Shown here: positions 11,439-15,600 of the stretch, piece by piece
How the letters are laid out: each line of letters opens with the position of its first letter
Numbering within the stretch: the stretch's first letter is position 1
DNA from: an uncultured bacterium
GTDB lineage: Bacteria; Verrucomicrobiota; Kiritimatiellia; CAIKKV01; CALHGX01
Length of the DNA stretch: 64,000 bases
Direction of reading: 5' to 3'
Assembly (NCBI GenBank): GCA_938031185.1
Contig: CALHGX010000028.1
Span: 1 to 64,000, forward strand
The notes under the pieces: generated by a model
What the model was told of the DNA's origin: nothing
The model's input: only the letters and a program-made list of their open reading frames with translations
The model's database searches: none
Translations under genes and position numbers: made by a program

Positions 11439-11769
11439 GCGGTAAGCCAGATGCTCGCATAACGCGGACAAGAGTCAAGCTGCTATCGGGTGGTGCGGTT
11501 TCTGCGGCCAGCCGCGCCGAACTGGAGGAAGAGAAGACGCGCCGGAGCGTGGTTCGGAGCCCTTTTTCCGGGTCGGGGCCGCCGGGAGGCGGCGTGTGAG
11601 CCTGTGCCGGAGCCTGTCCGCGAGCCCGTGCATGAGCCTGTGAGCCTGGCTCATGAGTCTGCCCGCCGGGTAGCGGGTTCAGGCGCATAGTCGCACACGT
11701 CGTTCGGCGAGCGCGATAAAAAGTTGCGCCGGCCCAAAGAAAACGTTCAGGATCGGGCCATCTCAGACC
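11439..11769. other. Intergenic region upstream of the metal locus
   Basis: 331 bases, the presumed control region of the metal locus reading left. On the minus strand a TTGACT hexamer occurs near 11475-11480, but I see no convincing -10 or Zur operator. It contains the 12-base tandem repeat at 11598-11645. A short open frame of EPVx repeats across it (11490-11690) has no supporting evidence. Confidence 0.4.
11598..11645. repeat. 12-base tandem repeat, four units
   Basis: Four consecutive units beginning GAGCC: GAGCCTGTGCCG, GAGCCTGTCCGC, GAGCCCGTGCAT and GAGCCTGTGAGC. The last units overlap an inverted repeat CATGAGCC ... GGCTCATG (11631-11655). No function assigned. Confidence 0.7.
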
Positions 11770-11908
11770 ATGAAAACCGGTTTCTCCTACGTCTATATGC
11801 TGCGAACCGAAACTGATCCGCCACACGTTTATACCGGTTTCACGGAGAACCTCGATGCGCGCCTCGCACCACAACTCCGGGATCGATCTTCACACCGCCG
11901 CCCTCTTT

Positions 11909-11934
11909 CTGTAGCCGCGGGCGTTGACCGCGGC
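11909..11934 (+). repeat. REP element, copy 1
   Basis: CTGTAG head followed by a palindrome with arms CCGCGG on each side of a short GCGTTGA-type loop. The GTAG tetranucleotide plus hairpin is the classic layout of REP elements mobilised by RAYT transposases. It interrupts the GIY-YIG remnant. Confidence 0.8.
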
Positions 11935-11980
11935 CTTTGCCAAGACCCACCGCACTCGCCCCAAATTCGGCGCCCTCATC

Positions 11981-11994
11981 GCCGGCGGCTACAG
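11981..11994 (-). repeat. REP half-element
   Basis: GCCGGCGGCTACAG, the inverse complement of the CTGTAGCCGC head. It is oriented opposite to copy 1, so the two form a REPIN-like inverted pair about 70 bases across. Confidence 0.6.
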
Positions 11995-12048
11995 ATGCGG
12001 CTACGGAGGCTTGCAATACGCCGACCGCGTTCTACCATTCACATCCCC

Positions 12049-12520
12049 ATGCACAAGCATCTGCGTCGTCTAAATCGCATATTGATTCCCCAAGCCGTCT
12101 ACTTCATGACGACGTGTGTCCGGGACCGCATGCCTGTCCTCGCCTGCGAGCAGGCCGCATCCATCCTGCGCGAGGAATGGGCCTCGGCAACGACCCGACA
12201 CGGATGGCGCATCGGCCGGTATGTCATCATGCCCGATCACGTGCATTTCTTTTGCGCGGAGCAAGCGGGCGGGGCTCGGCGCAGGTTGTCTGAATTCATG
12301 GCGTTTTGGAAGGAATGGACGGCAAAAAAGCTTGTTCGTTCACGGCTTATCGAGCCGCCGGTTTGGCAAAAAGAATTTTTTCGATCATGTTCTGCGAAGC
12401 GGCGAGTCCTACGCCGAAAAATGGACCTGTGTCCGTAACAATCCGGTGCGGGCCGGATTGGCGGCGCGTTGGGAAGATTGGCCATGGCAGGGTTTTGTCG
12501 ATTTCGATTCGCCCCTGTAG
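12049..12520 (+). pseudogene. REP-associated tyrosine transposase (RAYT), frameshifted
   Basis: Y1/IS200-like transposase of the RAYT group, the enzymes that mobilise REP sequences. Frame one (from ATG 12049) gives VYFMTTCVRDRMPVL, then IGRYVIMPDHVHFF with the HUH histidines, then LSEFMAFWKEWTAKKL and PPVWQKEFF. At a run of six T (12376-12381) the frame shifts, and the rest follows in the next frame as FFDHVLRSGESYAEKW, NPVRAGLA and WPWQGFVDFDSPL, ending at TAG 12518-12520. The shift fits one inserted base. The stop codon TAG is itself part of the GTAG head of the next REP. REPs on both sides support the assignment. Confidence 0.85.
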
Positions 12521-12551
12521 CCGCAGCCGCGCTCACCGCGGGCGGCTACAG
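12515..12551. repeat. REPIN: inverted REP pair
   Basis: CTGTAGCCGC at 12515-12524 and its inverse complement GCGGCTACAG at 12542-12551 enclose a GC-rich 17-base centre. The first head overlaps the last codon and stop of the RAYT gene. Confidence 0.8.
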
Positions 12552-12572
12552 ATGCCGCCCTCGCCGCGCGCG

Positions 12573-12598
12573 CTGTAGCCGACGGCGCTGACGTCGGC
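12573..12598 (+). repeat. REP element, variant copy
   Basis: CTGTAGCCGACGG ... CCG-to-GTC type variant: the palindrome arms changed together (GCCGAC and GTCGGC), preserving pairing. Compensatory change suggests the hairpin matters. Confidence 0.75.
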
Positions 12599-12624
12599 CT
12601 GTAGCCGCGGGCGGCGACCGCGGC
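12599..12624 (+). repeat. REP element, copy nearly identical to copy 1
   Basis: CTGTAGCCGCGGGCG followed by GCGACCGCGGC. It differs from the copy at 11909 only in the loop and directly abuts the variant copy in tandem. Confidence 0.8.
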
Positions 12625-12642: not shown

Positions 12643-15600
12643 TCAGGGCGAAAGGCGGACGCGATAGTAGAGCGCCGGGCTCGCGTCTTGTTCGATGATG
12701 TACTGGTTCTGTGGGGGCGTGGCGGGGATGCGCCCGACCTCAAGATGCCAGGCGGGCGAAAGAAGGTTCGTGCTGCACAGCACGTCATAGAAGCGCCCCG
12801 CAACACTGGACCACACCAGAACCACCTTGCCGGAGAAGGGCGCCCGCAACAGGTCTTCGACCATCAATCGCGAACTCGAATCAATCGGCGACGTTTCCGC
12901 CAGCCGTTCCTCCTCATCGCTCATGCCGTCTCCGTCGGTGTCGCGGCGGGTGGGATCGGTGATGTAGCCGTCCAGGCCCGGAATCGCTTCTTCGCCATCA
13001 CTGAGTCCGTCGCCGTCGGTGTCCCATCGCCGCGGATCGGTGATGTAGCCGTCCGCGCCGGGGATGACCTCCTCGCCATCCTCCAGCCCGTCGCCGTCGG
13101 AATCGCGGTGGTTGGGCAGAAGCCCAGCGGCCCACTCGCCCCAGTTGCACAGGCCGTCGCGATCGCTGTCTGCGATTTCGTACTCGAATACGCGCAAACC
13201 CTGCCCATCGATCGCGCAGATCACGCGCCGCTCGTCAGCCCACACTCGTTGGAAAGGATGCAGTCCGGAAATGTCGGACGGGAAGGAGGCGGCCTCCACG
13301 AGTTGCGTGGGATCCGCAACCTCGAAGGCGGCAAGGCCGCCCGGACCGACGGTAAAAGCATACGGCGAAACCGTCCAAGCGTCGTATCGGGCTTGTGCCG
13401 CGTTTTGGACCAGCAGCGCCGGGACAGACGGGTTGGAAAGATCGAAGACCCTGAAGCCCAACGTGTCCTAGGCGACAAAGGCGGTCTGCGATTGCACATG
13501 CTCGCGAACCGACGCACCCCCTGGGGAGTTGGCCGTGCCGAGCAAGGTCAGATTCATCGGATCAGTCGTGTCGTACACTCGCAGGCCGAAACTCGGACCG
13601 AAGACCGCGAGCCGTCCCGGCTCGGCTTTCAGGTCGGTCACCGTTTCCACGTGCGGGACGCTCGAGAGCAGCACCGGCACCGCGGGATTTGTAATGGATA
13701 GAACGGCGATGGCCTGGCTGCCATGGTACGGCACATAGACGAACAACAGGTCGCCGGCCAGCGCGATCGGTTCCGCGCCATTTGGGAAGGCCTGATCCGA
13801 AACCACGGCGGGAGCGTTCGGATCGCCGACATCCATGACCATCAGCCCGCTCATGAAGCCTGTCAAGAACAACCACCGTCCTCTAACCGCGAAGTCGCTG
13901 AGGGCGGGCATATTTGTGGAAGCCCGCGCCTGCGGCTGGTCGGGATCGGAAATGTCCACCATGTGCAACCGCTGACCGTCAATCGCATAGACGAGGTTTG
14001 AGGCCATGGCCGTTTCACGGATGGCGGTGGAACCGGTCCAAAGCCCGCGTGGGCGGAGATGAATGTCCAGGATGGGTTCCGTTCCGGAGGTCGGATCGAG
14101 GCCGTAGCGTACTTCCCATCCGTCGGGCAGGCCATCGCCATCGCTGTCGAACACGAACGGATCGGCGCCGAGGCGCAGTTCGTCCAACGTGCTCAGCCCG
14201 TCGCCGTCGGCATCGCCGTGGGGCACCTGCGCCAGCGAGCCAAAAGTGGCGCGTTCCCACTCGTCGAGGAAACCGTCGTGGTCCGCATCCGGCGGGAGCA
14301 GGGCCATCAACCGCATGCCCCCAAAAACGTCATTGCAGATGACGGCATTGGAAGCGATCCCGACGGCGTTGATGCGCGCCGCCGGCGAAGACTGACGCCA
14401 GGTGGACGCATGCACGAGGTTCGTTCCGCCGGAGATCGAGAGCAGCGCGAGGCCCTCGTTTTCGAGCGCCGCGGCCACGAGCTCGCCGCGCATGGCGGCG
14501 TCCACGACGTCGGAAAACTCTTCGAACGACGCGGCTTGCACGATGCGTGCCGGCTGATCCGGGTTTCCGAGATCGAAGACGGTAACGCCGTTGAAGCCGT
14601 TGGCGGCGACGAGGCGATCCCCGTCACGCCGGAGAGACTTGGGGTTAAACCCTGAGAAGTGCTCCGAGCGCACGACCACCGGCGCCGCGGGGTTCGACGC
14701 ATCCACGACGCAAAGGCCGCCGGTTGCGCTGAAGGCATAGACACGCTGATCGGCGCCCCAGCAGCAGACCTGCACGTCGCCCAGCGGCAACGCGCCGACG
14801 AGAACGGGATCGGTCGGGTCGCTTGCATCCAGCACATGCGCCGTGCCGGCCCAGTCGAGCACCATGGCCATCCGCGAGGCTTCATCGGCCTGCAAGTCGC
14901 GTACGCCGGACGAGAACATCGTGTCCCACCATCCCGCCCAGACCAGATTCGTGGGCGTACTCGCGTCAAGGCAGTGATAGAATCCCCACGCGTCGATGGC
15001 ATGAACGACACCCTGCCCCGTCGCCGAAGCGTTGCTGACCCCGTCCGCCGGTGCGGTGAACAGTATGGCCGCCGAGTTGCTGACCGTATAGGGGCCATAG
15101 GCGGCGAGTGCGACATCGAAACCGTCCCACGCGGAGACGCGCAACCAGGCGTTGGTTGTGTTCTCGATCAATCGCGAGTCAAGATCGGCGACGGCATTCG
15201 TCATGCCGGATGCCCACGAGAGCCAGGTCATACCGCCATCCAAACTGGCCTCGATGGCGTAGACCAGCGGATCGCCGTCATCATCCGCAGCGGTCCAGGA
15301 GGCCGGCACGATACCCGTTAGGATCGCGCCCGGCGCCGGCGCCGTGAGCGCCACCGATGGCGCGTGCACGGATCGCGCTCGCGACCAGATCGTTGCGCCG
15401 CCTGAGCCGATCACAACCGATTGAGCGCCGTCATCCCAGGGCAGTTGGACGGCATATACGCCCTGCGTGGCCCCGCTCCCGTCGGTGTCCCACACGGGAT
15501 CGAACGTCGTTTCCGCCAGCACCAAGCCCGCTGCGCCACGCAGTTCCGCCTTGAAGAAACCGCCGTCCACGTGTGGGGGCGGCGGCACATCGGTCAACAC

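Follow-up and report, generated by a model that had tools for sequence, protein, structure and literature searches.

A probable short-REP REPtron, stranded and decayed, in a Kiritimatiellia genome

Overview

The window, i.e., the whole stretch of 64,000 nucleotides of an uncultured bacterium that was analyzed here, carries at positions 11909 to 12623 what is probably a REPtron: a RAYT gene along with inverted, flanking GTAG REPs, of a short-REP, group 3-like type. This REPtron likely has been stranded, has decayed, and now is inactive or nearly so. The host belongs to the Kiritimatiellia, within the Verrucomicrobiota lineage, so that an early guess of a PVC genome was borne out. The features of the locus are as follows, with bit scores as given by R1, a covariance model built from 48 of 91 distinct REP sequences of relatives.

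11770..11950, plus strand: remnant of a GIY-YIG endonuclease gene (paralogue comparison)
11909..11933, plus strand: REP, clean hairpin, CTGTAG followed by CCGCGGGC GTT GACCGCGG (38.3 bits)
11970..11994, minus strand: decayed REP, inverted, like a CCGCCC/GGGCGG stem with substitutions (stem inspection)
12049..12520, plus strand: RAYT (Y1/HuH transposase) gene, frameshifted (homology, motif alignment)
12515..12541, plus strand: REP, imperfect, its CTGTAG head the source of the TAG stop of the RAYT frame (stem inspection)
12527..12551, minus strand: REP, inverted, overlapping REP 12515..12541 (27.2 bits)
12573..12597, plus strand: REP, clean hairpin with two compensated pairs, CCGACG/CGTCGG (35.2 bits)
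12599..12623, plus strand: REP, clean hairpin, CCGCGG/CCGCGG (35.2 bits)

The RAYT gene and its frameshift

The protein as read through the frame break scores 104.8 bits with NF047646 (REP_Tyr_transpos; cut-off 80), which matches five of five aligned members, versus 23.4 bits with the IS200 model, below that model's cut-off of 55. Against solved structures, a profile of this RAYT and four relatives finds the Escherichia coli TnpA_REP best (4er8, 3.5e-13), with IS200-type chains at about 4e-4. In sequence, that is, the gene is closer to RAYTs than to IS200/IS605 transposases, and the Y1 transposase of RAYT pattern that originally was predicted holds on the strength of both comparisons. The E. 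coli enzyme, with its Y/Z BIMEs, is the closest solved structure and has the HuH motif and single tyrosine that here are encoded in two frames. It belongs to group 2, however, whose REPs, according to the parts of the literature drawn on here, are longer and have a two-base bulge, unlike those of the window.

No single frame encodes this protein. The frame breaks at a run of six Ts, 12376-12381, with the HuH motif (PDHVH) before the break and the catalytic-tyrosine motif (ESYAEKW..VRNNPVRAG) after. Both align to relatives, here in two frames, and both are found in intact relatives. As the tyrosine motif lies behind the break, the sequence as assembled would yield a protein without the catalytic tyrosine. 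The predicted arrangement of a RAYT with flanking REPs is present, but in association with a broken gene, which had been overlooked. Programmed frameshifting was considered as well and rejected: it would require the ribosome to pass over one base of the T run, and none of the standard slippery designs was recognized.

Behind the T run the sequence is open, in the other frame, up to the expected stop. With a one-base shift in such a run, the break therefore may be a homopolymer sequencing error or else a very recent event. That open frame also suits a different reading of the locus, which is of an active REPtron that has recently arrived and whose REPs have not yet spread, the frameshift being an error of sequencing or somehow bypassed. 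Further evidence bearing on this reading is indicated below.

REP copies around the gene

Six CTGTAGCC heads are found within 11909-12623: four on the plus strand, at 11909, 12515, 12573, and 12599, and two on the minus strand, with head bases at 11994 and 12551. CT directly precedes GTAG in all six. Five REP or half-REP copies with such heads had been predicted to surround the Y1 gene, and the heads indeed are there, the count being one short. Plus and minus copies flank the gene on both sides, in inverted orientation, as is expected of a REPtron, with the upstream minus copy decayed; the latter yields no R1 match at E<=5. Together with the REP at 11909 it makes up a heads-outward pair upstream of the RAYT gene. 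Downstream, the heads of the REPs at 12515 and 12551 form a 10-bp inverted repeat, CTGTAGCCGC...GCGGCTACAG, and the TAG of the first of these heads is the RAYT stop codon.

The REP at 11909..11933 is an 8-3-8 stem-loop in which stem position 7 is a G·A mismatch. Clean copies, that is, with two 8-nt arms, a 3-nt loop, and this same mismatch, are three of the six, and imperfect stems are seen with both minus copies (11994, 12551) and with the copy at 12515. A score of clean grade is reached by 1.2% of CTGTAGCC heads joined to random 63% GC sequence; it is reached by three of the six heads at the locus versus one of the 23 found elsewhere in the genome. As to the CCGCGG palindrome that the copies were thought to share, it is present at 11909 and 12599, is CCGACG/CGTCGG at 12573, and is imperfect in the remaining three. 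Relative to its neighbors, the copy at 12573 is changed at stem pairs 4 (C-G to A-T) and 5 (G-C to C-G), and compensatory changes in both arms of one copy, as had been described, are just these. What is characteristic of GTAG REPs, an unpaired GTAG at the foot of a stem-loop which is conserved and covarying, is present. The three clean copies are in keeping with recent arrival of an active REPtron; the decay of both minus copies and of that at 12515 argues against it.

By analogy with other RAYTs, the enzyme would recognize a single REP strand that has folded into a hairpin, at the foot of which stands GTAG. It would nick beside the CT dinucleotide by way of a 5'-phosphotyrosine link. Such nicking would serve to copy or move REPs as well as REP pairs. 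Past activity of this sort may be supposed for the RAYT of the window.

Setting of the cassette

The GIY-YIG remnant at 11770-11950, within which the cassette is situated, was overlooked in the original prediction. The head of that remnant, 11770 to about 11899, contains a frameshift. Its likely tail (AFAK) begins at about 11933, after the REP at 11909, the match being short and less sure, and the middle of the gene is absent where that REP sits. The remnant looks, from sequence comparison, like the landing place of the cassette. Contig 70 carries a paralogue (locus L148), with 74.8% DNA identity over 11787-11895. Upstream, 11637-11757 is 76.0% identical to positions 864-984 of L148 over about 120 bases, and the duplicated unit therefore is larger than the gene. 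Both GIY-YIG copies of this genome are frameshifted. This too speaks against a recently arrived, active REPtron, as it suggests age or instead an assembly that is prone to indels.

A systematic link between RAYTs and GIY-YIG genes was considered and rejected: a motif scan of 12 RAYT loci found none adjoining a RAYT, with one chance match, at L034. On the other side of the cassette, an in-frame TAG at 13468-13470 (minus strand) splits a single frame into two long open stretches, 16617-13468 and 13461-12643. The two look like one large gene with a premature stop.

Spread within the host genome

Genome-wide there are 29 CTGTAGCC sites, six at the locus and 23 elsewhere. The draft genome (80 contigs, 89% complete) holds no copy of the CCGCGG-type REP outside of the locus, and a dispersed family, for which a genome-wide motif count had been suggested as a check, thus is not seen in this host. 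REPs could be missing through gaps in the draft. The sole clean hairpin elsewhere is an orphan at position 1521 of contig 22, at what was read as an intergenic position, and it has a CCGGCC stem. That stem is found letter for letter beside two RAYTs of other bacteria (L079, L093), and, going by this identity, the orphan may derive from another RAYT. Searching the genome with R1 gave four matches at the locus, the orphan, a weak match on contig 9, and one on contig 23 (E 3.5). The genome has four more Y1_Tnp loci, and among the GTAG sites listed around these there is no REP family.

Many extragenic copies across a genome are typical of GTAG REPs. These are not seen in this host, whereas in relatives the copies are many. 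Confinement to one locus was to have meant a local repeat rather than a RAYT-driven family. The confinement is real for the CCGCGG-type REP. That conclusion nonetheless does not follow, as like REPs surround related RAYTs and are dispersed in other genomes of the class.

REPs near to their RAYT have been interpreted as recent arrivals in Marinomonas as well as other bacteria, in parts of two papers (PMC8266576, PMC2817692), which would favor recent arrival here. In marine gammaproteobacteria particularly, per passages of PMC2817692, REPs likewise are found near the RAYT rather than genome-wide, coevolve with it, and as locus-bound are viewed as early after arrival. Here, by contrast, the gene is broken, so that decay is at least as likely as early arrival. 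An active, recently arrived REPtron consequently is unlikely, and the RAYT instead would seem to be inactive or nearly so, because its frame is broken before the tyrosine, half of its REPs are decayed, and the family is unspread.

RAYTs and REPs in relatives

The RAYT is matched at E<=0.001 in 42 of 58 related genomes, with the window's own included among the 58. Counts of REPs, and the test of their association with RAYTs, cover 56 of these (G056 and G057 left out). REP matches at E<=0.5 occur in 30 of the 56. The counts are lower bounds, with 141 candidates scored per genome, and amount to at least 43 in G050, whose RAYT is the closest to the window's in the 58-genome set (64%), and to at least 60, 61, 52, 45, and 75 in others. 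Among the 40 genomes in which the RAYT is matched, 18 have five or more REP matches, versus none of the 16 in which it is not (Fisher P 0.00095). Where the RAYT match is strong (E<=1e-20, 17 genomes), six genomes have fewer than five.

A second set consists of RAYT loci, these being the best 80 of 358 confirmed relatives from a scan of named genomes, mostly of Verrucomicrobiota, Kiritimatiellota, Lentisphaerota, or Opitutaceae. The 61.7 kb lying no more than 400 bp from the 80 genes has 247 GTAG hairpins, versus 68 in 660 kb further away; GATG-headed control hairpins at the same loci number 21 near and 74 far. Strict 8-3-8 GTAG hairpins number 160 near and 20 far, versus two near for the GATG control, with at least one at 52 of the 80 loci. 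The original prediction had suggested that the same head and a related RAYT be sought in other Kiritimatiellota. In the present set, GTAG hairpins stand around 73 of the 80 RAYT genes, as read off the per-locus table. The other seven have none within 400 bp, some of them being cut by contig ends.

One could suppose instead that the hairpins of the window are a local cluster that terminates transcription or forms a structure at mRNA ends, independently of the RAYT. Hairpins are indeed found just 3' of the RAYT gene, and the family is confined to this locus in its host. Against this, the GTAG head is fixed and unpaired, copies stand on either side of the gene and on either strand, hairpin density falls off with distance from RAYT genes, and GATG-headed controls are nearly absent. 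A terminator therefore is exceedingly improbable. It also is conceivable that this is a domesticated RAYT with a host role, its REPs being its own binding sites, i.e., for self-regulation, rather than mobile elements. REPs do adjoin both ends of the gene, and a downstream head supplies its stop codon, but the gene is broken here and the REPs of relatives are dispersed. Domestication consequently is very unlikely, and a decayed REPtron continues to be preferred.

Among 48 REPs of relatives all eight stem pairs change on both sides, with covariation that is reached by none of 500 shuffles. Paired cells make up 95.8%, versus 29-44% when slid; the first percentage is partly by construction, as the 48 were chosen as hairpins. 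Before the GTAG of the 160 near REPs stands CT in 61 and TT in 67.

In nine of the 80 loci the matched RAYT stretch is interrupted by one or two stops (L071, L082, L089, L096, L101, L116, L124, L129, and L145), so broken RAYTs may be common among relatives, with terminal stops included in that count. At L068 the RAYT is flanked by minus-strand REPs in 33-base steps (for example, -95, -128, -161; 47, 80; 146, 179), i.e., a tandem array, and L132 has a similar 33-base array.

REP-RAYT coevolution and the stem mismatch

Distances between REPs correlate with distances between RAYTs (Mantel r 0.39, 72 loci, reached by none of 1000 permutations). Stem position 7 is mismatched in 55 of the 160 near 8-3-8 REPs of relatives, and 40 of the 55 mismatches are G·A. 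On a quick RAYT tree of 81 rows, 30 of which have no mismatch label, this mismatch is clustered, with six changes versus 10.1 in shuffles, of which none of 500 are as low. The RAYT of the window falls within a well-supported set of five, four with the mismatch. Stem sequence and mismatch both follow the RAYT tree. As REP-RAYT coevolution already was reported in gammaproteobacteria, in passages of Nunvar et al. 2010 (PMC2817692), these results are an extension.

Strand differences between stems

Among 36 loci that have both orientations and three or more REPs, stems differ on average by 0.40 of 8 bases within an orientation and by 2.33 between orientations, a strand difference which none of 2000 within-locus shuffles reach. 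Counting the 51 loci with both orientations, stem types differ at two or more positions in 24 and are identical in 20. Spacing was tried as a cause of such unlike pairs and rejected, there being no significant dependence either tail-to-tail (Spearman rho -0.05, P 0.73, 45 pairs) or head-to-head (rho -0.19, P 0.36, 27 pairs). The idea that avoidance of long perfect hairpins is the sole reason for unlike partners therefore gains no support. Duplication of whole REP pairs would give rise to the same strand-difference pattern, as an alternative to selection. Other bacteria are known to have unlike partners too, the cause of which is called not obvious in section 14 of PMC3733652.

Comparison with known REPtrons

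The same 8-3-8 geometry, with GTAG attached directly or nearly so at the foot, is described in parts of the literature for group 3/subclass 2.5 REPtrons (Pseudomonas, Xanthomonas, and Stenotrophomonas, including S. maltophilia REPtron Sm). Passages of PMC8266576 describe group 3 REPs of the REPSm type as 16 palindromic bases interrupted by three, with the first loop G critical (G13). A loop-initial G likewise is found in 136 of 160 REPs of relatives. The RAYT here has D for E in its WQxxFFDH stretch, as is reported for subclasses 2.5 and 2.7 in parts of PMC6006769. By REP geometry and this residue the short-REP type thus may be termed group 3-like.

Group 3 REPs generally are perfect palindromes according to passages of PMC8266576, whereas in the window all three clean copies, along with the 55 relatives' REPs noted above, are mismatched at position 7. 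Mid-stem mismatches, where introduced experimentally into group 3 REPs, lowered cleavage (PMC8266576, in part). The host differs too: subclass 2.5, as stated in a passage of PMC6006769, is mostly limited to xanthomonads and pseudomonads, and here the class is another one and the REP family is locus-bound.

Closer in host are Opitutus terrae (Verrucomicrobia) and PVC bacteria, whose GTAG repeats and REPtrons are covered in passages of Di Nocera et al. 2013 (PMC3733652). Those REPtrons share with the present ones GTAG-tagged hairpins, like and unlike dimers, REPs inside of genes, and a PVC host. The passages concerned do not name the Kiritimatiellia, and 'GIY' is absent from that paper's main text. 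A literature search, outside of which most subscription papers lay, found nothing, judged by title, on RAYTs or extragenic palindromes in Kiritimatiell*. PVC GTAG repeats and REPtrons are thus already in print, as are locus-bound REPs and heterodimers in other bacteria. What is new is the Kiritimatiellia clade and a recurrent G·A mismatch in an otherwise group 3 geometry.

Implications

The known range of REPtrons gains a bacterial class. In addition there are about 80 natural pairs of enzyme and substrate, i.e., the best 80 of 358, with a stem that often is strand-specific and that follows the enzyme tree. A larger picture, possible if on the doubtful side, would be that the Verrucomicrobiota, Kiritimatiellota, and Lentisphaerota harbor a broad, little described radiation of group 3-like REPtrons, in which many RAYTs keep two strand-specific stems, some lineages have fixed a G·A recognition mark beside the loop, and a strand-coded, two-letter recognition has evolved with the enzyme. 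The example within the window is a modest one, and decayed, and it is the wider relatives that are the more interesting.
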